Shown here: positions 15,838 through 38,870 of the stretch, piece by piece | Layout of the letters: each line of letters starts with the position of its first letter | Position numbering within the stretch: the stretch's first letter is position 1 | Source: Candidatus Saccharimonadota bacterium | GTDB lineage: Bacteria > Patescibacteriota > Saccharimonadia > Saccharimonadales > Saccharimonadaceae | Length of the DNA stretch: 59,595 nt | Assembly: GCA_017512045.1 (NCBI GenBank) | Contig: JAFWHE010000023.1 | Location: 1 to 59,595, forward strand | Reading direction: 5' to 3' | Notes under the pieces: generated by a model | What the model was told of the DNA's origin: nothing | The model's database searches: none | The model's input: only the letters and a program-made list of their open reading frames with translations | Position numbers and translations under genes: made by a program

Positions 15838-16767
15838 CTAAAATTCCTTTTTCTTGCGCTTGAAATGCCCTTCTAAGGCTTTGTTTGCCTCCATATCCGC
15901 TTCGATGTTTTGTGCTCTCTTTACATGGACGAATACCACAGAGTCAAAGCTACTGAGTAACTTTTTTATATCATTATAAATTGGTATCAGATCCTGGTTC
16001 TTGACCTGATAAATTCCTCTCAATTGATTAATCATCATCAAGTTATCACCTACGAAGCGTACTCTCCTTAGACCTAATTCTCTCGCCTGTAACATTCCCT
16101 CCTTCATAGCATAATATTCCGCCACTCTGGAGGTAGCAAAGCCGATAAACTCCCCACCTCTTTTTATCTCCTTGCCATCCTCGCTCACGATATAATACCC
16201 AATCGCAGATGGCCCTGGATTGCCTTTACTACCGCCGTCCACATAAACTGTAGCACCATTTAATGCATTCCTATTCTGTGCGGCACGAATGCTACTCTCC
16301 AAATCATTAGATGGAGGATACAACTCCTTTAGGTATTGTGACGTCGGAGCAAGAGTATACCTAGTCTTACCTTCTAATATTTCTATTACAGAAATCGTTG
16401 CATCGTCTAGTCTCAGGGAAGGCATTTCCTCTGTTTTTAGATATTTAAATGCCGTGTAGCGATCCATCGGAGCAATCTTTGCCTCTGGTAGTGCCACTTC
16501 ATAAACAATATACAGATTGGCGAGTTGAGAGCTACCAGCAATATTAACAAAAGTAATCACATCCTTTAGAGTTACCTTCGCTACCTCTATACCAAGATAT
16601 TCATAGAATGATCGTGCTAAAGCTTCCTCTGGCTGCTCACCAAAGCGAATTTTCCCAGTCGGCAATTCCCAGGTCGGAAGATCCTCTGAACGGCCAATTG
16701 TTCTCTTGAGTAACAAAATTTTCTCCCCCGACCTCACAATTCCGATTACTCTAATTCTTTGTTTCAT
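15838..16767 (-). CDS. Fusion of a degenerate Nudix domain and an RNase HI-like domain
   Basis: The protein has 309 residues. Residues 1-135 form a Nudix fold, and the Nudix box begins correctly (G38, E44, R52). The glutamates expected at 53 and 57 are Ser and Tyr, leaving only E56, so metal binding and hydrolysis may be lost. Residues 170-300 are an RNase HI-like domain with the full acidic set D177 (VDGGSKGNPG), E217 (VAEYYA), D241 (VGDN) and D291 (EADMEAN). The second half should therefore cleave RNA in RNA-DNA hybrids, with the first half perhaps a nucleotide or RNA-end sensor. AGGGTGG precedes the ATG. Each domain is clear; the combined role is inference. Confidence 0.85.
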   Translation of the reverse strand: MKQRIRVIGIVRSGEKILLLKRTIGRSEDLPTWELPTGKIRFGEQPEEALARSFYEYLGIEVAKVTLKDVITFVNIAGSSQLANLYIVYEVALPEAKIAPMDRYTAFKYLKTEEMPSLRLDDATISVIEILEGKTRYTLAPTSQYLKELYPPSNDLESSIRAAQNRNALNGATVYVDGGSKGNPGPSAIGYYIVSEDGKEIKRGGEFIGFATSRVAEYYAMKEGMLQARELGLRRVRFVGDNLMMINQLRGIYQVKNQDLIPIYNDIKKLLSSFDSVVFVHVKRAQNIEADMEANKALEGHFKRKKKEF

Positions 16768-18118: not shown

Positions 18119-18724
18119 TTATGGTTTGATGATTTTCTCTGGATCGTAGATTTCACTAATATTCATTTCCATCAGCTCCACGAGGAAACGATCTCTCACA
18201 CTCTTACGATAGGTATAATCATCTTCACTCATGATGACATAGTTTAGTGGCTTCCCCTTCTTCTTCTCTACCACTTCTGCCCAGTGGGTAAGCTTTTTTG
18301 TCTTATCATCACCAATAATTAGCATATCTATGCCCTCTTCGCCAGGAACACGGTTAGTCACAATAAGACCGACTAAGTAGTTCTTCACTGGCTTGATATA
18401 ATCTGCCCAAGTACTTTTTCCCACTTCTACTTTTATTGACTCTGGAGTCTTCGCAGAAAACATTTCCGAAAGTGCATGGCTGAATGGATGTTTTAAGTTA
18501 GCTGAATAATAAATTTTATTGTCAAAAGTCTCATTTTTAACAATACCTATACCCTCGAGGTTAATTAATTCCCTCCTGACGGAGTTAATCTGCTCCTCAA
18601 TCACCCTGGTAATCTCTCTAACGTAAAAAGATTTGTCCGTATTTTCAAAAAATAGTGCAAGCAACTTCGTCCGAGTCTTTGAGCCGAACAATTTTTCTAG
18701 TGGAGTTGCGTTTTCTTTAACCAT
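18119..18724 (-). CDS. Winged-helix DNA-binding protein with nucleotidyltransferase-like C-terminus
   Basis: In this 201-residue protein, residues 10-85 look like a winged helix (GSKTRTKLLALFFEN, a YVREITRVI recognition-helix region, and a wing ending NKIYYSANLKHP). Residues 105-195 contain GLIVTNRVPGEEGIDMLIIG, resembling a minimal nucleotidyltransferase core, but with one aspartate and no GS motif, so catalysis is doubtful. Such fusions are common as small regulators in Patescibacteria. The gene overlaps the end of miaA by 8 nt, so the two are coupled. The regulated genes are unknown. Confidence 0.6.
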   Translation of the reverse strand: MVKENATPLEKLFGSKTRTKLLALFFENTDKSFYVREITRVIEEQINSVRRELINLEGIGIVKNETFDNKIYYSANLKHPFSHALSEMFSAKTPESIKVEVGKSTWADYIKPVKNYLVGLIVTNRVPGEEGIDMLIIGDDKTKKLTHWAEVVEKKKGKPLNYVIMSEDDYTYRKSVRDRFLVELMEMNISEIYDPEKIIKP

Positions 18725-19553: not shown

Positions 19554-21341
19554 TTATAACTTCTTTAGATATTTTGCGAGTGTAGAAAGCTTTACCTTCT
19601 CTTCCGCAACGCCATTATCAGATTTTTCATCATGGATACGCACACTCACTTCTTTAGATTCTGCGTCTTTTGGTCCAACAATCATGATACAAGGGATTTT
19701 CATAGCCGTTGCACGCTTAATTTTCTTACCCAATGACTCACTAGAATCATCCACGCTATAACGGAGCGGGTTATTATCAATCGGCTCGTCTAGGATGACT
19801 TTGTCTAACTGCATGCGGATGTCTGTAACATAATCTGCCACCTGGTCATTAACAGTCAAGATTCTGATTTGTTCTGGTGCACACCAGAATGGGAACCAGC
19901 CAGCCGTATGCTCAATAAATACACTCATAAAGCGTTCAATGGACCCAATCAAGGCGCAGTGCACCATAGCTGGGCGCTTTTTGCTACCATCTTCGGCGAT
20001 ATATTCTAGGCCAAATCTCTCTGGCTGTGCATAATCCAGCTGTACAGTAGCAAGCTGCCATTCACGATCTAGCGCATCTACCGCCATGAAGTCCATCTTT
20101 GGACCATACATTGCCGCCTCACCAATACCAATAAAATAATCCATCTCGTATTTATCGGCCATTTTCTTGATAGAATCCTCTGCTTTCTTCCACATCTCCT
20201 GTGTGCCAATATAGCCATCACCATCATCGCGGAAAGATAGACGCAAACGTAATTTCATGCCAACCTTCGCATATAAATCCTTGGCACTTTCAATTAGCTC
20301 GCCAAAGATGTCACCAATCTGGTCTTCTGTACAGAACACGTGACTATCATCCTGAGTAATCGCGCGCACACGAGAAAGTCCACCTAACTCACCCTTGCGT
20401 TCATCGCGATAAACCATGGTAGTCTCCAAATATTTGACTGGCAATTCTTTATAAGAACGTGGCTGTGAAGCAAAAATCTGTGCATGGTGTGGGCAGTTGA
20501 CTGGCTTTAGAGCTAGCTCATCACCAGATTCAGAGCTGGTAAACTTCAGAAGTTCTGGGAATTTAGCATAATGACCAGAAGTTTTATAGAGATCTACTAA
20601 TGCAATATGTGGAATACAAACTTTTTGATATCCCCTATCCTCACGATAGCTCTGAGCAAAACGATTCAAAAGATCGCGCAAAACTGTGCCACGCGGAGTA
20701 AATAATGGCAGGCCAGACCCAACTAATGGCGAATTACAGAACAAATCTAGCTCCTTACCCAATTTACGGTGGTCGCGTGACTTCGCTTCTTCCTGACGTT
20801 TGAGATAAGCCTCCAACTCCGCCTCCGTCTCAAATGCTACACCATAAATACGAGTGAGCATTTCACGCTTTTCATCGCCCTTCCAATAAGCACCTGCGAC
20901 ACGAGTTAGCTTGAATGGACCGCATTCGCTAGTGTTATTGACGTGTGGACCTTTGCAAAGATCGGAAAATAGATCGCCAAGGTCATAAAAAGTGATTTTT
21001 TCGTCTTCTGGAAGTTCTTCAATTAGTTCTTTTTTGAAATCTTGACCTTCTTCAATCGCCCAATTTAATGCTTCTTCACGAGAAACTTCGCGTTTTGCCA
21101 TCTCCAATTTACACTGAATAATACCACGCATTTTTTTCTCAATACGATTTAAATCTGCCTCAGAAATTTTGGTCTTGCCAAAGTCAATATCGTAATAAAA
21201 CCCATTTTCTATTGCTGGGCCAATACCAAATTTAGCATCCGGATATAGGTTTTTTACTGCTGCCGCCATTACGTGCGACAGAGTATGTCTCATTTTTTCA
21301 ACAAAATCTGCCTTATCAGCATTTTCCTCTTTCTTGCTCAT
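19554..21341 (-). CDS. thrS: Threonine--tRNA ligase lacking the TGS domain
   Basis: The 595-residue protein begins almost directly with the N2 editing domain (MRHTLSHVMAAAVKNLYP) and so lacks the ~60-residue N-terminal TGS domain of typical ThrRS. The editing domain keeps the HTLSH zinc/His pattern. The class II catalytic core has NCPHHAQIF, a motif 2 arginine region (YRDERKGELGG) and LIGSIERF (motif 3). The C-terminal anticodon-binding domain is complete. AAGGAAG precedes the ATG, and a TGATAAAAT box lies about 20 nt further upstream. ThrRS is also a classical Ap4A producer, which matters for the neighbouring fusion gene. Confidence 0.95.
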   Translation of the reverse strand: MSKKEENADKADFVEKMRHTLSHVMAAAVKNLYPDAKFGIGPAIENGFYYDIDFGKTKISEADLNRIEKKMRGIIQCKLEMAKREVSREEALNWAIEEGQDFKKELIEELPEDEKITFYDLGDLFSDLCKGPHVNNTSECGPFKLTRVAGAYWKGDEKREMLTRIYGVAFETEAELEAYLKRQEEAKSRDHRKLGKELDLFCNSPLVGSGLPLFTPRGTVLRDLLNRFAQSYREDRGYQKVCIPHIALVDLYKTSGHYAKFPELLKFTSSESGDELALKPVNCPHHAQIFASQPRSYKELPVKYLETTMVYRDERKGELGGLSRVRAITQDDSHVFCTEDQIGDIFGELIESAKDLYAKVGMKLRLRLSFRDDGDGYIGTQEMWKKAEDSIKKMADKYEMDYFIGIGEAAMYGPKMDFMAVDALDREWQLATVQLDYAQPERFGLEYIAEDGSKKRPAMVHCALIGSIERFMSVFIEHTAGWFPFWCAPEQIRILTVNDQVADYVTDIRMQLDKVILDEPIDNNPLRYSVDDSSESLGKKIKRATAMKIPCIMIVGPKDAESKEVSVRIHDEKSDNGVAEEKVKLSTLAKYLKKL

Positions 21342-21420
21342 TAAAAAACTTCCTTTCTTTTCTATATTTTATCACAAAATCCGCACAAAACTTGGTTTTA
21401 CCCTGAAAAAATAACGGTTT

Positions 21421-23055
21421 TTATGAGATAGAATTTAAAAACTCGCGCGAACCTGGATGTGGAGTAATTCCACGTTTCTTCAGATCTTTTTCTTGTTCCG
21501 TCAAGAAATATTTCATTGCCTGGTTCAGATTCTGATATGCTAATTCCTTTAGTGGTATCCACTCATCTGGTAAATCGTTCCGCCCGAGTTTATCCGATAA
21601 GAAGATAATCTTGTCAAAATCCGTCATCTCTTTCCTCGGGATGGTATGATAAGCAATAGCCTGGCAAATTTCATCATCTAAATCAAACCATTCTTTAGCT
21701 ACTGCACCACCGATTTCAGAATGACGGTAGTTCTTTGCATCATCATCCAGTAATTCTGATGGTAAATGATACTTTTCTACAAAATATTTCTCCTGCTCTG
21801 GAGATAATCTCTTTGCAATATCATGTGCAAGGCCTGCTGTATAGGCCTTTTCATAATCTAAACCATAGTTAACCGCCAGATCTTTAGCCTGATTTGCCAC
21901 AAGCAAACTATGAATATAGCGTTCTTCGTCCACTACCTCATGTAATTTTTCCCTAATCTTTTCATCCAAATCGCTTGCAAACATCGACTCTTTTAATGTT
22001 ATCTTTTTCTGTGCTACGTCCAGCTCTGCAACCTGCCCAATTGGCAAAATCATACGTGGAAGGCTATGTCCAAAGTTCAAATTAAATGCCACTGGCACTT
22101 GATATTGCTTCGCAACTTCCGTTACAATTTCTTTATACTCAGTATAGTATTTTTCATCCATTGGCTTACCAACTAATATACCGTTAATCTCGGAAAATAC
22201 GCCTTGTTTTTCTAAAATATCTATCATTTGGCGGTATTTCTCTGGGGATGGTTGCTCTTCACTAGTCTCAATGAATAATATTTTCCCTGCCCACTCATTT
22301 TTTGCTGGGAAAATCGGAAATTTCGCAAAAATTTCTCTCTGTTCTTCTGGAAAACGGCTACAAGCCACCGCTTCTGTAAGAATTTCGATACAACCACCTA
22401 GTAATTCTCCGGACACGACAGTTTTTCCCTGCTCTGGAACGAAAAATTCAATACCTTTTTCTTCTTGTACTTCCGTAGCTGGCACACCGACCTGCTCCGG
22501 ACCGAAATCCGAGCGAGATTTATACCAAATTGGGCTACTTTCTAACTCTATACCTCTGTTATTGCTGAACAAATTTTTTATACAATCTTTCGTATACGGT
22601 AACATTTCTGGACTAAACTCTGCTAGGTCTGTCAGTAACGCTGGGCCATAATAAGTATTCAACCCAAGTTTATACAGCATCAAATGGTGAGTTGTAGTGT
22701 CAGAAAAGCCCATAAAAATCTTTGGGTGAGACAAAATAAGTGCCTGAAAATCTTCATTCATTAGGTGTGATAGCGTACGAAAAGCATCTTCCCCGCCAAT
22801 TGCGCACCAAATCATACTAATACTATCGTCCTGGAAAGCTTTTTTCAAATCTTCTGCGCGCGCCTCAGGATGCTTTTCTAGATATTCCATACCTTTGAGA
22901 GAGTTTGGCATATATTCATACTCTAGACCTAGCTCTTTTAGTCTTTTTTCTAGCAATTCCACCTCGTGTTTGATGAAAGACTCGCCTAAAATCCCTCGCG
23001 ACAATGATACGATTGCGACTTTATCTCCTTTTTTCAGCATTTTTGGCTTTACCAT
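21421..23055 (-). CDS. Fusion of MccF-like S66 serine peptidase and YqeK-like HD phosphohydrolase
   Basis: The protein has 544 residues. Residues 1-345 are an S66 peptidase of the MccF type, with nucleophile S118 in MGFSDTTTHH, E224 in GGCIEIL and H330 in FGHSLP as the likely catalytic triad. Residues 375-530 match the YqeK HD family: IHSLLVANQA, GLAHDIAK (H411-D412), RHSEIGG, IAYHTIPR and FLSDKLG. MccF cuts acyl-adenylate-type amides such as processed microcin C. YqeK hydrolyses Ap4A to ADP. Both substrates are products of aminoacyl-tRNA synthetase chemistry, and thrS is the next gene. TGTTATAAT at 23083-23091 and AGGAGAG before the ATG drive it. Confidence 0.85.
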   Translation of the reverse strand: MVKPKMLKKGDKVAIVSLSRGILGESFIKHEVELLEKRLKELGLEYEYMPNSLKGMEYLEKHPEARAEDLKKAFQDDSISMIWCAIGGEDAFRTLSHLMNEDFQALILSHPKIFMGFSDTTTHHLMLYKLGLNTYYGPALLTDLAEFSPEMLPYTKDCIKNLFSNNRGIELESSPIWYKSRSDFGPEQVGVPATEVQEEKGIEFFVPEQGKTVVSGELLGGCIEILTEAVACSRFPEEQREIFAKFPIFPAKNEWAGKILFIETSEEQPSPEKYRQMIDILEKQGVFSEINGILVGKPMDEKYYTEYKEIVTEVAKQYQVPVAFNLNFGHSLPRMILPIGQVAELDVAQKKITLKESMFASDLDEKIREKLHEVVDEERYIHSLLVANQAKDLAVNYGLDYEKAYTAGLAHDIAKRLSPEQEKYFVEKYHLPSELLDDDAKNYRHSEIGGAVAKEWFDLDDEICQAIAYHTIPRKEMTDFDKIIFLSDKLGRNDLPDEWIPLKELAYQNLNQAMKYFLTEQEKDLKKRGITPHPGSREFLNSIS

Positions 23056-23082: not shown

Positions 23083-23091
23083 ATTATAACA
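23083..23091 (-). promoter_or_regulatory. Extended -10 promoter of the MccF-HD fusion gene
   Basis: The minus strand reads TGT TATAAT, followed by about 27 nt carrying AGGAGAGAGGA before the ATG. This is a normal leadered transcript, in contrast to the leaderless genes elsewhere in the window. Confidence 0.6.
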
Positions 23092-23150
23092 TTTTTAATT
23101 TTCAAATTTCGAAGAAAATATGATATAATAAAGATATATTCATCGTATAT

Positions 23151-23227
23151 GGGTCGCTAGCTCAGTTGGCTAGAGCGTCTCGTTTACACCGAGAAGGTCG
23201 GGGGTTCGAGCCCCTCGCGACCCACCA
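23151..23227 (+). tRNA. tRNA-Val (TAC anticodon)
   Basis: The 77-nt gene has an encoded CCA. GGGTCGC pairs with GCGACCC, the D-arm is CTCAGTTGGC-TAGAG, the anticodon loop TTTACAC gives TAC, and the T-arm is GGGGGTTCGAGCCCC. TGATATAAT at 23121-23129 is its promoter, with a weak TTCAAA 17 bp upstream of the -10. Confidence 0.97.
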
Positions 23228-23328: not shown

Positions 23329-24006
23329 ATGACGAAGGGCAATTCTACCAAGAAATCAGAGGCTGAGAGAATTCCTTTTAAGAAGTTATTCTTTATCTTT
23401 ATTATTGGTAGCGTCTTTGGCTGTCTATATGAGACTATTCTGACCTTCTTTATGTATCTATTCCAGGATGGCTCTATCGTCCTAGTTAGCCGTAGTGGCC
23501 TGCTCTACGGGCCATTTAATCCAATCTACGGCGTAGGCGCGGCATTGATGATCTATTTCCTTGCTCGCAAAGATTATAAATGGTGGCAAATCATCATCTT
23601 TGGCGGACTAATTGGCGGCATTTTTGAGTGCCTGATGGGATTTGGTCAGGAATTTTTCACCGGCACTAGTTCGTGGGATTATAGTGGACATTTCCTCAAT
23701 ATCGGTGGTAAAACTTCACTTTATATTATGACTATCTGGGGACTAATTTGCTACGTCTTAGTCAAGCTAATTTATCCTTTGTTCAATAGAATATACAACA
23801 AAATACCAGCCCAGACTAGCGATATGCTATTCTGGATATTACTGGTATTTATGATCGTTAATTGCGTGCTCTCTTTCTCTGCAGTTGTGCGAATGAATTT
23901 ACGCCATCATAATGTGCCAACTTTTACCCCATACGGCACATTTCTAGACAGTACATATACTGATGAGCGCATACATCAGTCTTATACTAACATGACAGAA
24001 CTCTAG
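23329..24006 (+). CDS. CmpB-like putative ABC transporter permease (PF06541-type) membrane protein
   Basis: The protein has about 225 residues from the ATG at 23329 and six or so hydrophobic segments. FGCLYETILTFF, SRSGLLYGPFNPIYGVGA and GGIFECLMGFGQEFF are the hallmarks of the CmpB membrane family of Firmicutes, whose substrate is not established. The longer frame from 23272 is rejected because TATAAT at 23317-23322 lies exactly 6 nt before the chosen ATG. The gene converges on the choloylglycine-hydrolase gene, and the two stops overlap by 3 nt. Confidence 0.82.
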   Translation: MTKGNSTKKSEAERIPFKKLFFIFIIGSVFGCLYETILTFFMYLFQDGSIVLVSRSGLLYGPFNPIYGVGAALMIYFLARKDYKWWQIIIFGGLIGGIFECLMGFGQEFFTGTSSWDYSGHFLNIGGKTSLYIMTIWGLICYVLVKLIYPLFNRIYNKIPAQTSDMLFWILLVFMIVNCVLSFSAVVRMNLRHHNVPTFTPYGTFLDSTYTDERIHQSYTNMTEL

Positions 24007-24953
24007 CCTTTTACAACCAATTCACTACCATCAGGCTTGCAGTCATCCAAGGCAACCTTCTGAACGCCTGGATTTTCATAAGTGTTGTAGTAATAAGTCT
24101 TTGTAGCAGCAGAATAGCAACTAGTATAGACAGTCTTCTCAAACTTGCCATCAGCCATCGCCGCTGCGCCATCTATCATTGCTACACCAGTGAGAGTATG
24201 GAATAGCCTAGACACATTGTCATCCTCATTATCCTGAGTAGGATAATTAGCGTTGAGATATGACACCCTAACAAAACGAGATGGAGAATAATAATCACCA
24301 GGGAGACCACGCATGAAAGAGCCGGAACCAAAGGCTTTTAACTCTGCCTTATCCCACTTCACGCTAGTTGGCATGAGACTATTAAGATTCATATAATTGC
24401 GTAGATTCTCTTGATGCCAAGCATATCCAGGTTGGTTAGTTAATACATCTACATTATTCTGGAAAATTTCCATACCATTTGGGGTATATTCTACTACAAT
24501 ACTTTTCTTGCCATCGCCAATAATCCAGTGCAACATCGAGGATGGTGTATTCTCATTAAACGGCTTATCGACAATTGCGACATCTTTCAGTGCTTTTTCT
24601 GCCTCATCTACGCTGGAGAAATTCATTGCTACCCAGAATGGAAATTCATAAGCAGCGACATTAGTCTTGCCATCTACTGGAGCTTTCTCATATTGCGCAT
24701 AGCCTGGAAAATTCAATCCAGCAATAGCCAAGCCTGCCTCGTTACCACAGTCAAAATATAGAGGCACGTTATCTATCACAATAGCCATGCCAATCAGTGC
24801 GTATTTGACTGGCATTTCACCCAGAAAAGCCGCCGTATAATGATATTTGCGAGGAGTAGCTACTACTTTCTGGCCATACCCTTCTGACCAATCTAGATTA
24901 CGACCAAAATACATATTACCTTTGTTGTCACTAAAACGCACACCTGTGCACAT
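24003..24953 (-). CDS. Choloylglycine hydrolase / penicillin V acylase family (bile salt hydrolase-like)
   Basis: This 316-residue protein is an Ntn-hydrolase. After loss of Met1, Cys2 becomes the N-terminal nucleophile. R18 and D21 (YFGRNLDW), N81 (GLNFPGYA), N173 (LTNQPGY) and R226 (SPSRFVR) all fall within two positions of the catalytic residues of characterised bile salt hydrolases. GLPGDYYSPSRF also matches. It has no signal peptide, so it is cytoplasmic. Bile-salt deconjugation is the closest known activity; other linear amides such as acyl-homoserine lactones or N-acyl amino acids are possible. A GAGGA precedes the ATG, with TGGTAAAAT further upstream. Confidence 0.88.
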   Translation of the reverse strand: MCTGVRFSDNKGNMYFGRNLDWSEGYGQKVVATPRKYHYTAAFLGEMPVKYALIGMAIVIDNVPLYFDCGNEAGLAIAGLNFPGYAQYEKAPVDGKTNVAAYEFPFWVAMNFSSVDEAEKALKDVAIVDKPFNENTPSSMLHWIIGDGKKSIVVEYTPNGMEIFQNNVDVLTNQPGYAWHQENLRNYMNLNSLMPTSVKWDKAELKAFGSGSFMRGLPGDYYSPSRFVRVSYLNANYPTQDNEDDNVSRLFHTLTGVAMIDGAAAMADGKFEKTVYTSCYSAATKTYYYNTYENPGVQKVALDDCKPDGSELVVKG

Positions 24954-28828: not shown

Positions 28829-29617
28829 TTATTTCCCTAGCAAAATCTTCTTTGGATTTGCAACCAGTAGCTGGTTGATTTTTTTCTGATCTTTCTTTAG
28901 GATTTTTTGTAGCTTCTTTTCAGTTAATTCCAGATCGTAATCATCTCTCGCATGATGAATATCAGAAGCTAGACAAAATATCTTATCCATTTTTAGTAAT
29001 TTCTTTAAAGTCTTTTCTTCCTTTTTGCCATATTTTCCAGTTAGAGCTAAATAATCTCCTTGGAGTAGACAACCTATCCGCACTAATTCTTCTGCGTATT
29101 TCAGATTATTCTGAATGTAGACATAGCGCTCCGGATGAGCAATCATTGGCACATAGCCACGCGTAATTAACTCAAATAGCGTCTGTGGCGCGCTCAAATC
29201 TTCATATTGGACTGGTAGTTCTATCAAGATATATTTTTTACTATTAAGTGTAGATACCTCGTAGATATCCTTGGTTTTTCTCTTTGACTTAGCAGGATTT
29301 TTGGAACTACTTTTTGTGGTATTCTTCACATTATATCCGTCCAACATTTCTGGTAATTCTTGGTCGATATAGATCTCATTACCAAGAAAAATATTAATTT
29401 TGATATTGGATTTTTTCATCTCAGAGCTAAGAGCTTTGAACAGCTCCCATTTCTCAGTGTTATTAGCATCGTATTTAGTACCACGAATATAGTGTGGCGT
29501 CAAAATAATATCCGTGATTCCGGCTTTTTCAGCTTTTCTTAAGATGGTTAAGCTTTCTTTGAAATCTTTCGCACCATCATCAATACCAGGTAGAATATGG
29601 CAGTGAACATCTATCAT
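28829..29617 (-). CDS. CpsB/YwqE-type PHP-fold tyrosine phosphatase
   Basis: The 262-residue protein starts MIDVHCHILPGIDDGAKD, the metal-binding N-terminus of CpsB/CapC phosphatases. LTPHY, LGNEIYI, IAHPERY and CLASDIHHARDD supply further metal ligands. It should dephosphorylate the C-terminal tyrosines of the CpsD-type kinase encoded just upstream. A Lys/Ser-rich insert near residues 95-115 (KSSSKNPAKSKRKTKD) is unusual and probably a flexible loop. Its ATG directly follows the kinase gene, within a CpsC-CpsD-CpsB-type operon. Confidence 0.9.
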   Translation of the reverse strand: MIDVHCHILPGIDDGAKDFKESLTILRKAEKAGITDIILTPHYIRGTKYDANNTEKWELFKALSSEMKKSNIKINIFLGNEIYIDQELPEMLDGYNVKNTTKSSSKNPAKSKRKTKDIYEVSTLNSKKYILIELPVQYEDLSAPQTLFELITRGYVPMIAHPERYVYIQNNLKYAEELVRIGCLLQGDYLALTGKYGKKEEKTLKKLLKMDKIFCLASDIHHARDDYDLELTEKKLQKILKKDQKKINQLLVANPKKILLGK

Positions 29618-30360
29618 TATTTTTCTAGCCTAGAATAGTACTCTTTCGTGTAGTAGGAAGAATATGTACTATTCTTAGACTTTACCCTATTAATCACTAC
29701 GCCAGAAATCTTAGAATTGACTTTTTCGAAGTTTTTCTTCACGCTCTCTAACTGGTCAACCTTAGTCTTGTCACTAGAAATAGTGATAATATTCACATCA
29801 GAATATTGTGACATCACAAGTGCATCAGAAAGACCAAGTGCCGGAGGACAATCTATTAAAATAATGTCATAATCCTTACGCAAGTCGTCAATTAATTTAC
29901 GGTTATTCTCCGAAGAAACTAGCTCCAAAGGATTCGGTGGAGTAGGTCCAGTTGGCAGTAGGCTCACGCCAGAAATCTTTGTCCCACAAATAAATTCTTT
30001 CTTCTTTTTACTAGCCTCTTCGTAATTCAAAATGTAGTTAGAGTACCCCTGGCTAGCACGGTTTGGAATATGAAAAATCTCATGTTGGCGACCACGACGC
30101 ATATCGCCGTCAATAATAAGCACTTTTTTATCGTCTTGTGCAAAAGCCGTAGCTAGATTCGCAATTAAGAAACTTTTGCCATCACCAGGCTCCGGAGAAG
30201 TAACTAGAATTACTTTTAACTCTTTGCCGATAGAAGAAAACACTAGGTTAGTTTTAATAGACTTGACTGATTCTGCAAAAGATGACTTTGGATTAGTCGC
30301 AATAACCAAGTCATTATTTTCTGTCATCTTAGACTTCGCATTCTTCGTATCCTTACTCAT
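29617..30360 (-). CDS. CpsD-type bacterial tyrosine kinase
   Basis: The 247-residue protein has Walker A SPEPGDGKS, Walker A' LIIDGDMRRGRQHEIF and Walker B IILIDCPPALGLSDA, the BY-kinase set. The C-terminus carries a tyrosine cluster (YSSYYTKEYYSRLEK) for autophosphorylation. It lacks the fused membrane domain, so it must be activated by the separate CpsC-like protein upstream. Cycles of phosphorylation by this kinase and dephosphorylation by the CpsB-type enzyme control polymer length and export in Gram-positives. Confidence 0.92.
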   Translation of the reverse strand: MSKDTKNAKSKMTENNDLVIATNPKSSFAESVKSIKTNLVFSSIGKELKVILVTSPEPGDGKSFLIANLATAFAQDDKKVLIIDGDMRRGRQHEIFHIPNRASQGYSNYILNYEEASKKKKEFICGTKISGVSLLPTGPTPPNPLELVSSENNRKLIDDLRKDYDIILIDCPPALGLSDALVMSQYSDVNIITISSDKTKVDQLESVKKNFEKVNSKISGVVINRVKSKNSTYSSYYTKEYYSRLEK

Positions 30361-30371
30361 TAGCCCTCTCC

Positions 30372-31043
30372 TTATTTCTTCCCTACTGTCGGCACTACAC
30401 CTAGTACTACTAGGCCAACTCTGTCTTCCACAGTGGAAGCGTTTTTGATAGTGTTGTCCAGATAAAATTTAATCGCCACCGTTGCTAGACCAAAGGCTAG
30501 GCCAACGGCAAAGAATGTAAATATTTCTTTAATTTTATTGACGTTGTATGGTGCTGCCGCCAGTGAAGCCTGATCAACAATTTGAACGTTATCTATCTTG
30601 TATAGACGAATAATCTCATTCTTGAATACCAGGCTCAGCTCGTTTGCGATTTTCTGCGCCGTGAAATTATCTTTATCAGATACTGCTACGGTAATCAGCT
30701 GAGTGCTACTAGTAGAGCTAACAGAAATCTTCCCTGCTAGTTGATCAACAGACATATTAAGACCTAGATTTTCTATCACATGCTCAAGCACGTCATGACT
30801 TTTGATAATCTCCGAATAGGTCTTCACCAGATTATTAGAAAGTGTAACATCAGAAGTGGTAATCTTAGTAGTAGAAGTGGCCTCAGAAGTTAGAACCAGC
30901 TTCGTCGTGGAGCGATAGAGCGGTGTCTTAATGTAATTGGAATAAACAAAGCCACCAGCAACCACAGCAATAGTTATTGCTAGCACAATATATATCTTAG
31001 AAATAATGTATTGAAATAATTCTTTTAGATTAAAATCTTCCAT
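30372..31043 (-). CDS. CpsC/Wzz-type chain-length regulator and kinase activator
   Basis: The 223-residue protein has one N-terminal membrane helix (about 18-38), an extracytoplasmic region containing KTPLYRSTTKLVL, and a second helix near residues 185-205 preceded by the Pro-containing AAAPYNVNK segment typical of Wzz proteins. The short cytoplasmic tail would activate the kinase encoded 11 nt downstream. A near-consensus promoter (31103-31131) starts the operon, and the leader carries a TCCACC-AGA-GGTGGGA hairpin. Confidence 0.88.
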   Translation of the reverse strand: MEDFNLKELFQYIISKIYIVLAITIAVVAGGFVYSNYIKTPLYRSTTKLVLTSEATSTTKITTSDVTLSNNLVKTYSEIIKSHDVLEHVIENLGLNMSVDQLAGKISVSSTSSTQLITVAVSDKDNFTAQKIANELSLVFKNEIIRLYKIDNVQIVDQASLAAAPYNVNKIKEIFTFFAVGLAFGLATVAIKFYLDNTIKNASTVEDRVGLVVLGVVPTVGKK

Positions 31044-31102
31044 TTTTTACTCTATTTTTTTCCAAACTAACATATAATCCCACCTCTGGTGGATATACCT
31101 CC

Positions 31103-31131
31103 ATTTTATCACAAAATGCTCATAATGTCAA
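31103..31131 (-). promoter_or_regulatory. Promoter of the CpsCDB-type operon
   Basis: On the minus strand TTGACA (31126-31131) and TAAAAT (31103-31108) have a 17-bp spacer. The leader of about 55 nt contains a TCCACC / GGTGGGA hairpin. Confidence 0.8.
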
Positions 31132-31210
31132 TAGGGAGAATATATTTATAATCATATTAGGATGGATATTGTGGTATTGTATTTTTTTATTATAATGTTA
31201 TAATATTAAT

Positions 31211-32032
31211 ATGAAAACAAAACCTCGAGATGTAACAATCGTTGTGGCAGCCCATAAAGATTATCCGATGCCAAGCGATTCAATCTATTTGCCTTTGCAA
31301 GTCGGATCATACGACAAAGAAAAAATAGAAGCATTTGCCCAAGATTCATCTGGCGACAATATATCGCAAAAAAATAGCTACTACTGTGAACTTACAGGAT
31401 TGTATTGGGCATGGAAAAACTGCGATTCCAACTACATTGGTTTGGTGCATTATCGACGCCATTTTTCATCATCTACAAAGATAAAAAGTAATCACAATAG
31501 AGAGCAAAAACTAAAAAATGTAATTTCCGAAAAAGAAGTGCGGGATTGCTTGAAGAACACTGACATTATTTTACCAAAGAAAAGAAACTATTATATCGAA
31601 AATCTATACTCTCATTACAAAAATACCATGCATATCGAGCCACTTGATTTGACAAGGACAATAATTGCTGAAAAATACCCAGACTATCTCAAAGAATTTG
31701 ATAACTTGAAAAAGCGTTCATCAGCCCATATGTTCAATATGGTTATAATGAAAAAAGAAATACTCGACGAATATTGTGAGTGGCTTTTTGACATCTTATT
31801 CTCTCTTGAGGCAAAAATACCAGATTATATAGACGTCACCAAATATAGCGTTTTTCATAAACGTTTTTATGGTAGAATTTCCGAATTGTTACTAGACGTA
31901 TGGCTTAATACGAAAGGCTATAATTACCGCGAACTGCCAGTTATAAATATAGAAAATGTCAACTGGGTCAAAAAAGGATCGCGCTTTTTAGAAGCAAAAT
32001 TTTTAGGGAGAAAATATGATAAGTCCTTCTAG
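31211..32032 (+). CDS. DUF4422-family putative glycosyltransferase
   Basis: The 273-residue protein has VTIVVAAHKDYPMP at the N-terminus, then YYCELTGLYWAWKN and IGLVHYRRHFSS, the hallmarks of DUF4422 proteins found in capsule and LPS loci. These are predicted GT-A-like glycosyltransferases acting on lipid-linked glycans; donor and linkage are unknown. TGTTATAAT ends exactly 6 nt upstream of the ATG, with TTGTAT 16 bp further upstream, which implies a leaderless mRNA. It overlaps the following glycosyltransferase gene by 17 nt. Confidence 0.85.
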   Translation: MKTKPRDVTIVVAAHKDYPMPSDSIYLPLQVGSYDKEKIEAFAQDSSGDNISQKNSYYCELTGLYWAWKNCDSNYIGLVHYRRHFSSSTKIKSNHNREQKLKNVISEKEVRDCLKNTDIILPKKRNYYIENLYSHYKNTMHIEPLDLTRTIIAEKYPDYLKEFDNLKKRSSAHMFNMVIMKKEILDEYCEWLFDILFSLEAKIPDYIDVTKYSVFHKRFYGRISELLLDVWLNTKGYNYRELPVINIENVNWVKKGSRFLEAKFLGRKYDKSF

Positions 32033-34025
32033 CGAGCCACTTGTTACTGCAGTAGTTGTAACATATAATCGCAAAGAGCTCTTGGCAGAGGCAATACAGG
32101 CACTGCTAAGTCAAGATTATACTAATTGTAATATCCTAATAATTGACAACGCATCAACAGATGGCACAGACAGGCTAGTCAAAAAACAATTTGCACAAGA
32201 GCTAAAATCAAACAAGATAATATACTATAAATCTGAGAGAAACCTGGGTGGAGCTGGTGGATTTAACATTGGTCTAAAGAAAGCTGTCCAGCTAAAAACT
32301 GATTTTGTCTGGGTTATGGATGACGACTGTATCGTCCACAAAGATAGCCTTATAGAATTATTAAAGGCAGACAAAAAATTCCACGGAAACTATGGCTTTC
32401 TATCTAGTAAAGTTCTATGGAAGGATGGGACAGTATGTAAAATGAATATTCCGAAGAAAACGTTTGCTACTTGGCTAAAAGATTTCGATACAAACTACCA
32501 AAAAATTGCCATGGCATCTTTTGTTTCCCTTTTTATTCCATGTCAGAATATTAAGGAATATGGTCTTCCTATAGCAGATTTTTTCATCTGGACAGATGAC
32601 TGGGAGTATACCAGAAGGCTGTCTAGAGCAAAAAAGTGTTACTATGTTTCTTCAAGCGTAGTTACACATAAATCATCTTCTAATCTAGGGGCCAATATAG
32701 ATACTGCGGAAGACGACAGGATTGATAGATTCAAATATCTATACAGGAATGATGCAGTATTATACAGAAGAGAAGGAATTCGTGGCGCTATTTTGTCTAA
32801 ACTGCGCATTTTTATCCATAAACGTAGACTAAAGAAGTCAAACTTATCCAAAACCGAAAAGCAAAAGCGACTAACAATAATTAATGATGCAATTAAAACT
32901 GGGCGAAAATTTCGACCAAGCATAGAATATCCGCAGACTAATTTGCTTCTCGCACTCGGTGAAACATTCTATCGCGGCGGGCAAGAATCATTTCTACTTA
33001 ATGTCTACAATTATCTCGACCATGAAAAATATAATTGTGACTTTTTTACAGCCTTCAAGCTTGATAATGATGCAGCACAAGATTGTCTAAATGAAAACAA
33101 AAATGTAATTTATCACTACGATATGCCATTCAAAAGATTCACAAAAAATATTACTTTCTTAATAAAGTTTTCTAAACACCTTTCTAAGCATCATTATGAT
33201 ATTGTTCATATTAATTCTTGTAGTACTTTCTGTTTGGCCATGGGTGCAATATGTTGTAAAAAACATAAGGTAGAAAAGGTACTCGTTGAATCACATAGCT
33301 CTGGCCTACCATCCTTTAGGCATTCTGTAGTCATAAAACTATTTGGTCCTTTTTGGAAAAAAGCAGATTATGTTTTAGGTTGCTCTGATTCTGCAGCAAA
33401 ATACAGATATCCTACTGGGCAGAAATATGACATCATCAATAACGGTATACAAGTGCAAAAATATAGTTTTAACACGGCTACTAGAAAAAAATGTAGGAAG
33501 CAATTAGGCATAAAGCCAGATGAATATGTTATAGGGAATATTGGTAGATTTGAAACGCAAAAAAATCATGGTTTCATATTGGAAGTTTTCTCAGAAATCC
33601 TAAAGAATAATCCGAACTCAAAATTATTGCTAATAGGTGAGGGGAGTTTAAAGAACAATATCATAGAGAAAGCACAGCAGCTCAACATTTGGGATAAGGT
33701 AATTCTCTTAGAAAAACGTAACGACATCCCAGAGCTGTTACAAGCAATGGATGTATTCTTCTTCCCTTCTTTATATGAAGGATTCAGCATTGCCGCGATT
33801 GAAGCGCAAGCATCTGGACTACCTATAGTTTTCTCTAGCACACTTGGCAAAGAAGTCGGCATTATAAGCCAAAGTACCATGGTCAACCTAAAGGCAGATA
33901 AGAAAAAGTGGGCAAAAGAAGTAATGAAATACTACGGATGTAGTCGCTCCGATCAATCAGAAACAGTTGCAAAAGCAGGCTACGGACTAAACTTCGAAAA
34001 ATTAGTTACTCTTTACGAGAAATAA
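32016..34025 (+). CDS. Two-domain glycosyltransferase: GlfT-like GT2 fused to GT4
   Basis: The protein has 669 residues. Residues 1-265 are a GT2 domain of galactofuranosyltransferase type: TAVVVTYNRKELL, IDNASTDGT, NLGGAGGFNIGL, WVMDDDC, and FIWTDDWEYTRR as the catalytic region. Residues 305-669 are a GT-B GT4 domain with YRGGQESFL, IGNIGRFETQKNH, and EGFSIAAIEAQASGLP, the donor-binding E-x7-E motif. One polypeptide could thus add two successive sugars. UDP-galactopyranose mutase encoded at 39655 would supply UDP-Galf for the first half. It overlaps the DUF4422 gene and converges with the Wzx gene by 24 nt. Confidence 0.9.
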   Translation: MISPSSEPLVTAVVVTYNRKELLAEAIQALLSQDYTNCNILIIDNASTDGTDRLVKKQFAQELKSNKIIYYKSERNLGGAGGFNIGLKKAVQLKTDFVWVMDDDCIVHKDSLIELLKADKKFHGNYGFLSSKVLWKDGTVCKMNIPKKTFATWLKDFDTNYQKIAMASFVSLFIPCQNIKEYGLPIADFFIWTDDWEYTRRLSRAKKCYYVSSSVVTHKSSSNLGANIDTAEDDRIDRFKYLYRNDAVLYRREGIRGAILSKLRIFIHKRRLKKSNLSKTEKQKRLTIINDAIKTGRKFRPSIEYPQTNLLLALGETFYRGGQESFLLNVYNYLDHEKYNCDFFTAFKLDNDAAQDCLNENKNVIYHYDMPFKRFTKNITFLIKFSKHLSKHHYDIVHINSCSTFCLAMGAICCKKHKVEKVLVESHSSGLPSFRHSVVIKLFGPFWKKADYVLGCSDSAAKYRYPTGQKYDIINNGIQVQKYSFNTATRKKCRKQLGIKPDEYVIGNIGRFETQKNHGFILEVFSEILKNNPNSKLLLIGEGSLKNNIIEKAQQLNIWDKVILLEKRNDIPELLQAMDVFFFPSLYEGFSIAAIEAQASGLPIVFSSTLGKEVGIISQSTMVNLKADKKKWAKEVMKYYGCSRSDQSETVAKAGYGLNFEKLVTLYEK

Positions 34026-35534
34026 TTTCTTTAAATAATCCTTCAAATATTTACATTCTTTTCTATAAAAGATAGTACTGTCAATAATTATCAAAGTAGC
34101 AAGGATGACAAAGTACAATAGCCCAGTATAAATTAGCTCTCCTAGAGTGTGCCCACTGATGGGAAAACAGAAATGACAGATTGTAATTCCTAGCAGGCTT
34201 ACGAGAGAAAAATTAACTAGCTTTTTCATAAAAATTTTTATAGGTCTAAATAATATTTCTTTTCGTAAGAAAATTATATGGAATGCCGTTCTATATGTCA
34301 TAGCAGCCAAAGTGCCTAATGCAATTCCGATAAGTCCTAATCTCTGTACAAGCACAATAGACAAAACAATGTTAATAATTGCTTCAATATATGCATGGAC
34401 TTTTATCTTCTTAAATTCTCCTGACGCATAAGCTAGATTCACGAAAGGCTCTTTCAAACAAAATATTACTTCAGACATCAACAATATTATTCCAAAAATT
34501 GGCTCATTATAATTTGCATCTTGGACACCAGTAGTGTAATAAGCGACAAAAGGAACCAGCAATAATCCGCCAAGCGTAAACAGTAAAGTCGTCAGACAGA
34601 AAACAATATATTCATAGAGGGAGAATACTTTGTTCAGCTCCTCTCTATTTTCCTTAGCATGTAAATGTCCAATTGTGGGAATAATACCGGCAGAAACCGA
34701 TGTAATAATAGTCTTAATACCTTCGACTATCATCGCATAAACACTGTATATAGAGACATTAATTAATCCGGAAAAACATGTCAACACTACAATATCTGTA
34801 TTCTTATGTATGAATGTTGCAATGCTAATACCCAGACCATCCCATCGATTTTTAATTTTATAATTATCCCCTTTTTCTATTTCTACTAAACCAATATATT
34901 TCTTTACAGCCTTCTTATAAATAAATGGCTGGACAATAAAGACTACACCTGAAATAAATTTTAGAAGATGAATATCTGGAAATACTTTTGCACCGATGAA
35001 AAACAGAACGGTACTAACAATTAGCATCAATGACTGCGTGAATGCTACTACGTACACTTTTTTGTCTGCGTTTAGTAAAATCCTCCATGAAATCTTAAAA
35101 ATATTCTGCGCCAAAATATACAACGCGATAATTAGTGTCAGCGAGAAAATATATCCAAAAGAAAAAGGTGTATTAATTAATATTGGATAAATAACGCCTA
35201 GCGCAATCGCGTAAATAACAAATATTACAGATAAACGATCATAGAAGCGATTCGCAGCATGTAATATTTTGCTGACCTTTTTTGAATCATTCTTTGCCAA
35301 TGGAGCATATAAACTAGCTAGCAGTACCGGGACTAATCCGCCTTCAAAAAGTGTAATATAATTCAAAAATTGCGTTAGGGATGAAATCAATCCATTAACA
35401 TCAGAGCCGAAATAATCCAAGGTAATTTTCCGGATTACGAAATTACTAATAATCGTTATCGCCTGCAAAAACAAGCTAGCAAACATATTTAATAATGTTA
35501 CTGATTTGTTATCTTTATGCTTCATTATTGGCAC
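34002..35534 (-). CDS. Wzx-type polysaccharide flippase (MOP superfamily)
   Basis: The 510-residue protein has about 12-14 hydrophobic helices. The N-terminal NFVIRKITLDYFGSDVNGL segment and LTQFLNYITLFEGGL are typical of oligosaccharide flippases of Gram-positive capsule loci. It should flip undecaprenyl-linked repeat units to the outer face. It is the last gene of the minus-strand IspD-SDR-TagF-Wzy-Wzx run and overlaps the end of the Wzy gene by 20 nt. Confidence 0.9.
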   Translation of the reverse strand: MPIMKHKDNKSVTLLNMFASLFLQAITIISNFVIRKITLDYFGSDVNGLISSLTQFLNYITLFEGGLVPVLLASLYAPLAKNDSKKVSKILHAANRFYDRLSVIFVIYAIALGVIYPILINTPFSFGYIFSLTLIIALYILAQNIFKISWRILLNADKKVYVVAFTQSLMLIVSTVLFFIGAKVFPDIHLLKFISGVVFIVQPFIYKKAVKKYIGLVEIEKGDNYKIKNRWDGLGISIATFIHKNTDIVVLTCFSGLINVSIYSVYAMIVEGIKTIITSVSAGIIPTIGHLHAKENREELNKVFSLYEYIVFCLTTLLFTLGGLLLVPFVAYYTTGVQDANYNEPIFGIILLMSEVIFCLKEPFVNLAYASGEFKKIKVHAYIEAIINIVLSIVLVQRLGLIGIALGTLAAMTYRTAFHIIFLRKEILFRPIKIFMKKLVNFSLVSLLGITICHFCFPISGHTLGELIYTGLLYFVILATLIIIDSTIFYRKECKYLKDYLKKLFLVKSN

Positions 35535-36702
35535 CTCTCAGCACATTGCCATGATAGCCAGTCAAAATTATCACAAATAGAAATAGAATTAGGTTCTGAG
35601 TGACTAAAAATAGGTGCGGTTCGATAAAAGCATGAACATATCTCAAACATAGTAAGGCAAGTAAATAATAATCTTTTGACATAAATGCGTACTTGTTTAA
35701 TTTCATATATCCAACTAATATGATGGCACATGTTATAACACCGTATTTAATTGAAACTAGCAAATATGAATTGTCTATCGTATTAAAAGACTCATTATCG
35801 GCCGTGCCCTCATAAATATCAGCTTGGCCAACCCATTCAACACTCTGGCCAATCAGAGAAACTCCGTATTCGGTTATACCTTCGTGACTCAACTCTAATC
35901 TACCAGACGAATAATCATTAATCTGTTTTAGGACTGGAATTTCTGGGTTATAAGAATACGCAAAGAATACTGACCCAGCTAAAAGAATCGCAGGCAATCC
36001 ATAGGCAAAAATATTTAAGAGTTTTGAAATTTTTGCCAATAATCCATACTTATACATAATGGAAAAAATGATACAGATAATGGAGAAGATGAATTCCAAT
36101 CTAGTGTCAGTTGCTAGAAATATAATAATATTGACGGCGGCCAGTATTACCCATTCAAATAATTTAACATTTTTTTGCCTTAGGAATAAATACGTCCCGG
36201 TTAACGACCATCCGAATATCGCGGGAGCGGTGCACCACCTAAACCCAAGGCTGTGTCTTTCAATGCCATTCACCCTAACGAAAATCCTATCTGGAATTAC
36301 CCCCAAAAGCGACAAAGCTACAATTATTACGAAAACAGTAGCTATCGAGATAATAGACCATTTGAGTAACTTTTTGATATTTACTCTGTACATACTAAGT
36401 ATTAATATATACGACTGAAGAAGAAGTCTGTCGTCTGTGATGAAGGACGAAACTAATAGAAGTAAAAAAAATCCAGTGCATATCAGGAACGATTTTTTTG
36501 AATAATATTTCACATCAAATGCTATTATCTTAAATAACAAAAAACCAAGCAACGCATATCTCACTATGCTAAAAATAGTTTTGTCCATAGTGCCGGCATA
36601 GACAAAGTACATTGTCATTATATTAATGAGAAGGACTGATATTGCACAGAAAATACAAAATCCTTCAAACTTCTTAGATATTTTTTTCTCATTAGCTTTC
36701 AT
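35515..36702 (-). CDS. Wzy-like O-antigen/capsule polymerase
   Basis: The 395-residue integral membrane protein has roughly ten helices and one large extracytoplasmic loop (about residues 260-325, including YSSGRLELSHEGITEYG). The S-S-G-R-x-x-L/E motif in the loop is characteristic of Wzy-type polymerases, which are otherwise poorly conserved. It would polymerise flipped repeat units. It overlaps both neighbours (TagF-like and Wzx genes), which indicates tight coupling. Confidence 0.8.
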   Translation of the reverse strand: MKANEKKISKKFEGFCIFCAISVLLINIMTMYFVYAGTMDKTIFSIVRYALLGFLLFKIIAFDVKYYSKKSFLICTGFFLLLLVSSFITDDRLLLQSYILILSMYRVNIKKLLKWSIISIATVFVIIVALSLLGVIPDRIFVRVNGIERHSLGFRWCTAPAIFGWSLTGTYLFLRQKNVKLFEWVILAAVNIIIFLATDTRLEFIFSIICIIFSIMYKYGLLAKISKLLNIFAYGLPAILLAGSVFFAYSYNPEIPVLKQINDYSSGRLELSHEGITEYGVSLIGQSVEWVGQADIYEGTADNESFNTIDNSYLLVSIKYGVITCAIILVGYMKLNKYAFMSKDYYLLALLCLRYVHAFIEPHLFLVTQNLILFLFVIILTGYHGNVLRGANNEA

Positions 36703-37834
36703 TTCGTAACTTCCTGACTAGGATATTCACAATGTTGCTAGTCGCTTCTTTTGATTCATACAGTCCAACCATCTTATAATACTCGCTGAGCTTCTTGCGA
36801 TAACTATTGTCATCAAAATCAATAATCTCATTATATAAATCATGATTGGTATTTGCTACTGGAAAAGGCAAATCTCTAATACTAACATACAGGCCTCGTT
36901 CTTTTTCATAATCTTTTTCATCTGGAATATAGCAAATAATTCTCTTTCGCAATAACGCAGCATCGAAAATTGAACCAGAATAATCACTAATATAAAAATC
37001 TGCAGCGGAAATTAATTCTTGCATATCTGTATATTTTCTCCCATCCAGGACATCGTCATTCATATGTAATTTGTCCTGAAACTCTTCATTATATGGATGG
37101 AGTTTTACTATTATTTCCCATTCTTTTCCAAACTTTTTTGTTAGAGCCTTTTTTATTTCTTCAATATCCAAATTAAACTGCCCTTCCCTTGGGTTTTCCC
37201 TTAACGTTGGCGCATATAATGCAATTTGCGTGTTGTCTTTAATATGATAAAACGATCTGACCCTCTTCTTGGATATCGTTTGGTTCGAGAGCAATGCAGA
37301 ACTTTTTGGAAGCCCAGTTTTTAATACCTTCCCATCACACAAAAATGCACTACCAAATATTTTTGTTGTCCAATCACTATTTGATATAACCATATCAATC
37401 ATTTTAGAATTATGCTTTAAACGTCTAATTGATTCCTTTGGTAGCTTATCAGCCACATCCGCTTCAATTTTTTTAAATCCTAATCCGCCATGCCACGTCT
37501 GTAAATAAAATTGGCCTTTTCTTTTAAACACCCAGACCGGTTTCATAAAAGAGTCTACCCATATCTTCGATGTAGCCATTTCCTTTATCATATCCAATGT
37601 CCCCCATTTCACTTGCTGAACATAATTCGGAGCATTGGCAAAACGATTCTTTTTATAAAACCAAACTAATTTGATATCCGGATAAGCCTTATGAAATTCT
37701 TCCGAAATATACTTTGGGTTATCACTATATTTTTCCCCATTAAAGCTCGCAAAGGAAACTTTATCCTCTAATGGCCTAAGCCAGTACAAATGAAAGAAGA
37801 CCCATCCAAAAACAATTTTTAAAAAATCTTTCAT
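36692..37834 (-). CDS. TagF/TarL-like CDP-polyol phosphotransferase
   Basis: The protein has about 380 residues from the ATG at 37834, which follows the previous stop by 2 nt and GGAGAGG by 10 nt. The longer frame from 37885 would overlap the previous gene. It has LQTWHGG (catalytic His region), VISNSDWTT, KTGLPKS, IVKLHPYNEE and ISDYSGSIFDAALLRKRIICY, the CDP-glycerol glycerophosphotransferase set. Such enzymes transfer glycerol- or ribitol-phosphate onto lipid-linked glycans. The IspD/TarI-like gene two places upstream suggests that a CDP-polyol made in this operon is the donor. Confidence 0.9.
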   Translation of the reverse strand: MKDFLKIVFGWVFFHLYWLRPLEDKVSFASFNGEKYSDNPKYISEEFHKAYPDIKLVWFYKKNRFANAPNYVQQVKWGTLDMIKEMATSKIWVDSFMKPVWVFKRKGQFYLQTWHGGLGFKKIEADVADKLPKESIRRLKHNSKMIDMVISNSDWTTKIFGSAFLCDGKVLKTGLPKSSALLSNQTISKKRVRSFYHIKDNTQIALYAPTLRENPREGQFNLDIEEIKKALTKKFGKEWEIIVKLHPYNEEFQDKLHMNDDVLDGRKYTDMQELISAADFYISDYSGSIFDAALLRKRIICYIPDEKDYEKERGLYVSIRDLPFPVANTNHDLYNEIIDFDDNSYRKKLSEYYKMVGLYESKEATSNIVNILVRKLRNES

Positions 37835-37838
37835 TATC

Positions 37839-38870
37839 CTATTGCCTCTCCAATAATGATCTGTATAATCTATCAATAGCATCATTAAATTGGTATTTTG
37901 GTTTCCAGCCGATTTTTTTAATCTTTTTATTGTCCATTATCATACCGTTCACTGGGGCAAAACACGTGTCACCCACTGTATCAATTCTGACATTTACATC
38001 GCCAAGATTTGCAATATACTGTGCCATATCTTTTATGGTGCAGTTTGGATTATCCGCTGCAACATTATACATTTCGCCATCTTTGCCATCGCGTAAAATA
38101 GAGAAGATTGCACATATCGCATCAACTGAGTAAATGAAGTTGATTCTCGTCTCCCCGTTCGACCTAAGAACTATATCATTTCCAGCGATTGCAGACTCAC
38201 AAAATGATTTATGTGCCCTATTGTCGTCGCTCGGAAGTCCAGCACCAAAACACATAGCCAATCTTGCTATTGAAGTAGGCACACCATATTCTTTATAGTA
38301 TAAATATGAATACAATTCAGCAGCCCTTTTACCAAACGAGTATGAGCTTCTCGAGGACATTAGGTCAATATATCCTTGGTCGTTCTCATCAACGTCTGTT
38401 TTCATTAATGTTCCATATGCTTCCATAGAAGAAACTAGGAGAAATTTACGGATGTCTTTAGTTTTTGCAAATTCTAACATCGTCTTTGCGCCATTAGCAA
38501 TTATATCTAAGGTTTCAACTGGGTTAGAAACGAAAAATTCAGACCGCGTAGGAGAAGCTGCATGGATAATATAATCTATTTCATCGTCAATTACTAGCTG
38601 AGAGGACAAATCAGACTCAATCCACTTTACATTTTTAAGATTTTTTAAATCTTCTGGGATTTTTTTCCTTGTTCTGTATATCAATATCAACCTTGTATCG
38701 TAGTGATAATTATTATTAAGAAACACTATTGTTCTCGCAATAATTGAGCCAAGAAAACCAGTTGCACCAGATATTAAAACTGTTCTATTGCGAAGAAAAT
38801 CATAATTATCCCTGTTGGTAATTTCGACAATATCATCAGCTAGTGTCTTATTCATGTTGATATTCTCCAC
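37839..38870 (-). CDS. NAD-dependent epimerase/dehydratase (extended SDR)
   Basis: The 343-residue protein has GATGFLGSII as the NAD-binding glycine motif near residue 35, IHAASPTRSE, and the catalytic YSFGK (YxxxK). C-terminal substrate-domain motifs are SGETRINFIYSVD and YNVAADNPN. Neighbouring IspD/TarI-like and TagF-like genes suggest it modifies or makes the polyol or sugar that becomes CDP-activated. The reaction cannot be read from the sequence. Its start overlaps the end of the cytidylyltransferase gene by 23 nt. Confidence 0.85.
   Translation of the reverse strand: MENINMNKTLADDIVEITNRDNYDFLRNRTVLISGATGFLGSIIARTIVFLNNNYHYDTRLILIYRTRKKIPEDLKNLKNVKWIESDLSSQLVIDDEIDYIIHAASPTRSEFFVSNPVETLDIIANGAKTMLEFAKTKDIRKFLLVSSMEAYGTLMKTDVDENDQGYIDLMSSRSSYSFGKRAAELYSYLYYKEYGVPTSIARLAMCFGAGLPSDDNRAHKSFCESAIAGNDIVLRSNGETRINFIYSVDAICAIFSILRDGKDGEMYNVAADNPNCTIKDMAQYIANLGDVNVRIDTVGDTCFAPVNGMIMDNKKIKKIGWKPKYQFNDAIDRLYRSLLERQ

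Follow-up and report, generated by a model that had tools for sequence, protein, structure and literature searches.

A fusion of an MccF-clade S66 peptidase with a YqeK-type HD hydrolase in two Saccharibacteria

The window analyzed in this work, a stretch of 59,595 nucleotides from a Candidatus Saccharimonadota genome, carries at positions 21421–23055 of the minus strand a single uninterrupted open reading frame of 544 codons with an ATG start and an AGGAGAG ribosome-binding site; a plus-strand reading of the same segment was ruled out because of stops throughout. The encoded protein consists of two halves. Residues 1–360 (21976–23055, minus strand) form an S66 peptidase of the MccF clade and the Ba3275/4e94 type, with S118, E263, and H330 as the catalytic triad and an aromatic loop marked by W177 and F184, and residues 361–544 (21421–21975, minus strand) form a YqeK-type HD hydrolase. 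A promoter-like site, TCGAAA-18-TATAAT with TG before the second hexamer, precedes the gene at 23083–23112 on the minus strand as a consensus match only, and the second copy of the fusion, in the RGIG5655 genome described below, likewise has an extended -10 like sequence (TGCTATAAT) upstream. A divergent tRNA-Val(TAC) gene (23151–23227, plus strand) flanks what proved to be an insertion slot. On the other side, separated from the fusion gene by a 79-bp spacer (21342–21420, minus strand), lies thrS (19554–21341, minus strand), which encodes a threonine–tRNA ligase of 595 residues (TIGR00418, 614 bits) and is indeed the next gene downstream, as the first-pass annotation of this DNA had it. No terminator-like site was found in the spacer, and its thrS-proximal end (GATAAAATAnAGnAAAGAAAGGAAGTTTTTTA), which is kept in RGIG5655, looks like the start signals of thrS itself. 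ThrS has no TGS domain by Pfam, the first recognized domain being the SAD editing domain. The block of thrS, miaA, and a gene for a 201-aa protein (18119–18724, minus strand) is conserved in the genus; the last of these matches no Pfam or NCBIfam model and scores 76 bits with PDC-M05A, a candidate family of PADLOC, and because it lies beside miaA in all genus loci read, it is probably a housekeeping rather than a defence protein.

The two families that had been named for this single chain, MccF-like and YqeK-like, were confirmed by profile searches. Pfam places the N-terminal S66 domain at residues 13–137 (101 bits), the C-terminal S66 domain at 215–345 (84 bits), and the HD domain at 379–490, all above the gathering cut-offs, and NCBIfam assigns the HD half to the YqeK equivalog TIGR00488 at 108.6 bits (cut-off 70.15; the RGIG5655 copy scores 105 bits). 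PADLOC returned only a weak generic Cas3-HD match for the fusion protein. AlphaFold2, supplied with 24 window and locus sequences, gave a model of the whole fusion with a mean pLDDT of 91.9 and a pTM of 0.90; the likeness of such a fold to known enzymes does not by itself show function.

A full-length relative was retrieved from Candidatus Saccharibacteria RGIG5655, a sheep duodenum genome (L031/L069), by a scan of GTDB r220 contigs with short peptide patterns as query and one genome per species. This copy is 541 aa long without an internal stop; downstream come thrS, miaA, and the other neighbours known from the window, and a tRNA-Val again lies on its far side. The two proteins are 75% identical overall (S66 half, 72%; HD half, the better conserved of the two, 82%), and the FASDL motif at the junction is kept along with both domains. 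That the frame might be an assembly join of two genes had been raised earlier as a possible refutation, and nothing speaks in favour of it beyond the rarity of the fusion. Because a second MAG, assembled independently, has the same full-length gene (75% identity) in the same place, with the same junction and neighbours, we regard an assembly artefact as refuted, with a residual probability close to nil. The fusion of an MccF-clade S66 peptidase with a complete YqeK-type HD hydrolase is real. Between the two copies, pN/pS is 0.25 in the S66 half and 0.15 in the HD half with pS of 0.71–0.75, and therefore purifying selection acts on both halves. With pS at 0.73, synonymous sites are close to saturation, indicating that the fusion has long been maintained.

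In the S66 half, S118, E263, and H330 are invariant in 11 aligned proteins, which include E. coli MccF from plasmid MccC7-H22 and AgnC5 of agrocin 84. The MccF residues in the triad columns are S118, E243, and H311, and the triad of Ba3275 (S116, E243, and H313) corresponds to S118, E263, and H330 of the fusion protein. The structure 5jyb, a Ba3275 triple mutant titled S116A, E243A, H313A, has alanine at the Glu of FETSE and at the His of NFGH. The alignment with MccF E243 and the E243A mutation of 5jyb thus identify E263 as the triad acid. The triad had first been given as S118, E224, and H330; its serine and histidine hold at these positions, but E224, which aligns with MccF N220, was ruled out as the triad glutamate by the same two lines of evidence. 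A phmmer search gave 4e94 with E=5e-97, and in the AlphaFold model the S66 half superimposes on 4e94 with Z 49.3 and an rmsd of 1.5 Å over 338 residues and on Ba3275 with AMP bound with Z 48.2, compared to about Z 31 for LD-carboxypeptidases (LdcA).

The closest known systems for this half are 4E94, an MccF-like protein of S. pneumoniae, and Ba3275 of B. anthracis (5F1Y and, with AMP, 5F5X), which are 40–45% identical to it, share the fold over the whole half (Z 48–49) and the triad, and have Glu at the MccF N220 position in common with it, but end at the S66 domain without an HD domain. MccF and AgnC5 have the same fold and triad, with an aromatic residue in the W186 loop (F184 in the fusion protein), but they are only 26–27% identical, differ at N220, and have no HD domain. 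N220 and K247 of MccF contact the aspartyl moiety of its substrate. The title of structure 3TLY lists N220 of E. coli MccF as mutated together with S118 and K247; the N220 position is Glu (E224) in the fusion protein, and that of K247 falls in a gapped stretch of the alignment. Because of the Glu at N220, a microcin C-type specificity of the S66 half is doubtful and the aminoacyl group of its substrate is not predicted. The Ba3275-type subfamily may accept an aminoacyl group different from that of MccF, and microcin C itself may not be a substrate of the fusion protein. No McC-type biosynthesis gene and no mcc or agrocin cluster was seen in the neighbourhood, which holds thrS, miaA, tRNA-Val, and a CmpB-like protein. 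MccF cleaves the amide between the acyl and nucleotide parts and so detoxifies intact and processed microcin C (PMC9239234, PMC3817062), its targets being chiefly aspartyl and glutamyl nucleotides (adenylates) (PMC3817062). For the Ba3275 subfamily, whose complex in the PDB is one with AMP (5F5X), aminoacyl-nucleotides are putative substrates.

The HD motif of the second half was found at residues 411–412, where it had been annotated. The ligands H29, H58, D59, H91, H117, and D135 and the catalytic K62 of S. pyogenes YqeK (PMC11857287) align with H382, H411, D412, H445, H470, D488, and K415, respectively, and all six dimetal ligands and the lysine are present in both fusion copies. Two additional histidines are the mark of the two-metal YqeK type (PMC8177086), and both are present in the fusion protein. 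An ungapped extension of the alignment places the adenine-pocket residues L172, F180, and T183 of S. pyogenes YqeK at L525 (kept), H533 (changed), and S536 (conservative). With the catalytic residues kept, both active sites of the fusion protein look intact. In the AlphaFold model, the HD half matches YqeK SP1746 and a YqeK-ADP complex with Z about 21, and its closest relatives seen are 35–37% identical. The symmetrical Ap4A hydrolases of S. pneumoniae (SP1746, 8JJA), S. pyogenes (8WMY), and S. agalactiae (2OGI) have the six ligands and the lysine in common with it at similar Z, whereas identity is about 26–37% and the adenine-side residues are partly changed in the fusion protein. These YqeK proteins are encoded in a nadD-yqeK-rsfS operon, whereas this one stands behind an S66 domain. 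YqeK splits Ap4A to ADP (PMC11857287), and the YqeK of JCVI-Syn3A, a mycoplasma NadD fusion, cleaves NaAD analogues and 8-oxo-GTP and partly complemented mutT (PMC9426524). The starting premise that the MccF and YqeK families cleave aminoacyl/peptidyl-nucleotides and Ap4A, respectively, is thus in agreement with published enzymes (PMC9239234, PMC3817062, PMC11857287, PMC9426524). In the mycoplasma NadD-YqeK (JCVISYN3A_0380), YqeK is likewise C-terminal and the partner handles adenylylated compounds, but that partner is an adenylyltransferase rather than a peptidase. Another Patescibacterium (G263) encodes a 468-aa protein with YqeK in front of RmlD (dTDP-4-dehydrorhamnose reductase), both above the NCBIfam cut-offs (L080, 1791–3197, minus strand).

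The thrS neighbourhood had been put forward as a functional argument, and it fails as such. A comparison of 24 thrS loci of the genus shows no conservation of the adjacency beyond the two fusion carriers, the slot being empty or occupied by other genes. In fusion-less genomes, tRNA-Val often adjoins thrS immediately upstream, without an intervening gene (for example in L082, L085, L086, L093, and L098), and a short-chain dehydrogenase, a permease, or an aminotransferase-like gene, judged by eye, fills the gap in other relatives. The stand-alone S66 genes of the genus lie elsewhere; judged by eye, their neighbours are CTP synthase, acetyltransferases, or primase and sigma-factor genes, and thrS adjoins none of them at the loci read. 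Genes come and go in the gap next to tRNA-Val. Because this gap is variable, the position of the fusion gene gives no support to a link with threonyl-tRNA synthetase and looks like chance; an operon link with thrS was ruled out by the empty-slot comparison.

The fusion is present in 2 of 174 genus genomes, and S66 genes of the same type stand alone in 7 of the 174 at 48–57% identity. Two of the 394 family genomes sampled carry the fusion, and among 380 genomes drawn across the phylum none was found besides the window's own. YqeK passing TIGR00488 occurs in only one of 101 family genomes, again the window's own, and was therefore probably acquired; stand-alone YqeK-like genes were seen in two genomes of another genus (G114 and G723). 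NadD, the usual partner of YqeK, was found neither in the window genome nor in five relatives with a model that was positive in 11 of 14 control genomes, and a NadD partnership of the YqeK half was ruled out on this ground. In a tree of S66 sequences, those of gut Bacillota and Saccharibacteria are intermingled and a donor is not separable, a pattern compatible with repeated horizontal transfer. A viral origin was rejected, as the pattern scan gave no full-protein relative in viral contigs and phage records gave single-domain matches only; no copy was found on plasmids. Among the papers searched, none names both MccF and YqeK. As far as the searches reach, which covered genomes of the genus, the family, and the phylum and Bacillota by short-peptide patterns only, the combination is new.

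HIT-family hydrolases, among which are phosphoramidases and MccH, an enzyme of microcin C resistance (PMC7157772), occur in 151 of 170 genomes of the genus and were not found in the window genome (G000), the RGIG5655 genome (G633), or G647. Both fusion carriers are therefore without HIT, compared to 17 of 168 others (Fisher 0.012), although the two carriers are relatives of each other and one genome has a completeness of only 65%; for all nine S66 carriers the excess (3/9 vs 16/161, p 0.06) is not significant. For these reasons, HIT loss as an explanation of the fusion is reduced to a hint, and a weak one, beyond the fusion itself, for a joint clean-up role.

Our preferred reading, to which we assign a probability of about 0.5, is that two known enzyme types make up a rare, bifunctional hydrolase that acts on nucleotide adducts in the cytoplasm. 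Two genes, each known alone, were fused, and the fused gene lies between tRNA-Val and thrS in two Saccharibacteria of the gut. By analogy with MccF, Ser118-His330-Glu263 would most likely cut the amide between an adenylate-like nucleotide and its aminoacyl or peptidyl group, and the two-metal center with K415 would, as in YqeK, most likely cut the pyrophosphate bridge of Ap4A, a similar dinucleoside, or damaged nucleotides to give ADP-type products. Both activities would have a single purpose, to clear adenylylated compounds that are toxic or stray, and such a combined role is plausible because the two domains share one chain. Against it, Ap4A and acyl-nucleotides call for different chemistries for which a common enzyme is not needed, the reactions need not be coupled, and the carriers are only two, in one genus. 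A more specific version is tentative and in our view rather unlikely: a Trojan-horse or stray acyl-nucleotide would lose its aminoacyl or peptidyl moiety at the S66 site, and the HD site would complete the breakdown of the remaining nucleotide or scavenge it, together with Ap4A, in place of the apparently missing HIT hydrolase.

It is possible, at odds well short of even, that the fusion is fortuitous, with the S66 half acting on imported acyl-nucleotides, YqeK serving as a general house-cleaner for Ap4A and other nucleotides, and no meaning beyond co-expression. The small number of carriers in the genus fits this explanation, and the unrelated partners of YqeK elsewhere, NadD in mycoplasmas (PMC9426524) and RmlD in the Patescibacterium mentioned above, suggest a promiscuous add-on domain; however, the junction and both domains were kept over a divergence near saturation at synonymous sites, and both families handle nucleotide compounds. 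The activities of JCVI-Syn3A YqeK toward NaAD analogues and 8-oxo-GTP, with the partial mutT complementation (PMC9426524), would also suit a role in nucleotide sanitation instead of antibiotic clean-up, where the YqeK half is a proofreading diphosphatase as in the mycoplasma NadD-YqeK and the S66 half deacylates damaged cofactors, but NAD proofreading would have no obvious partner given that NadD was not found in the window genome or its five relatives, and we consider this improbable. Still less probable, and by a wide measure, is cell-wall recycling with the S66 half as an LdcA-type LD-carboxypeptidase on muropeptides. LdcA does belong to S66, and the Pfam name of the family is LD-carboxypeptidase, but the LdcA model NF008424 gives 48.5 bits against a cut-off of 378, the aromatic residue at the MccF W186 loop position is kept, and this half is nearer to MccF-clade structures than to LdcA in both sequence and fold. 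On the poor model score and the weaker fold match, an LdcA function was rejected.

If the bifunctional hydrolase reading is true, this would be the first enzyme known to us in which a single chain combines the cleavage of acyl-nucleotides with that of Ap4A-type compounds, and its host belongs to an ultra-small epibiont lineage that keeps few genes. For Ba3275-type S66 proteins, structures exist, including one with AMP, and no natural substrate is reported as far as we found; a fusion partner that acts on adenine nucleotides would be a clue to the role of this subfamily.

Several other genes of the window are worth recording. A choloylglycine (bile salt) hydrolase with Cys2 present is encoded at 24003–24953 on the minus strand (NF038245, 419 bits vs a cut-off of 350), and close relatives of it (75–77% identity) lie near thrS in two other genus genomes (L090 and L098). 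The gene at 15838–16767 on the minus strand encodes a second two-domain protein, in which a NUDIX domain (PF00293) stands before an RNase H-like domain (PF13456), and is 78% conserved in the RGIG5655 locus L069 (2193–3179). A surface polysaccharide region at 28829–40800 encodes CpsB/CapC, Wzz, a ParA-like ATPase, DUF4422, UDP-galactopyranose mutase, and an IspD-like cytidylyltransferase with an epimerase.
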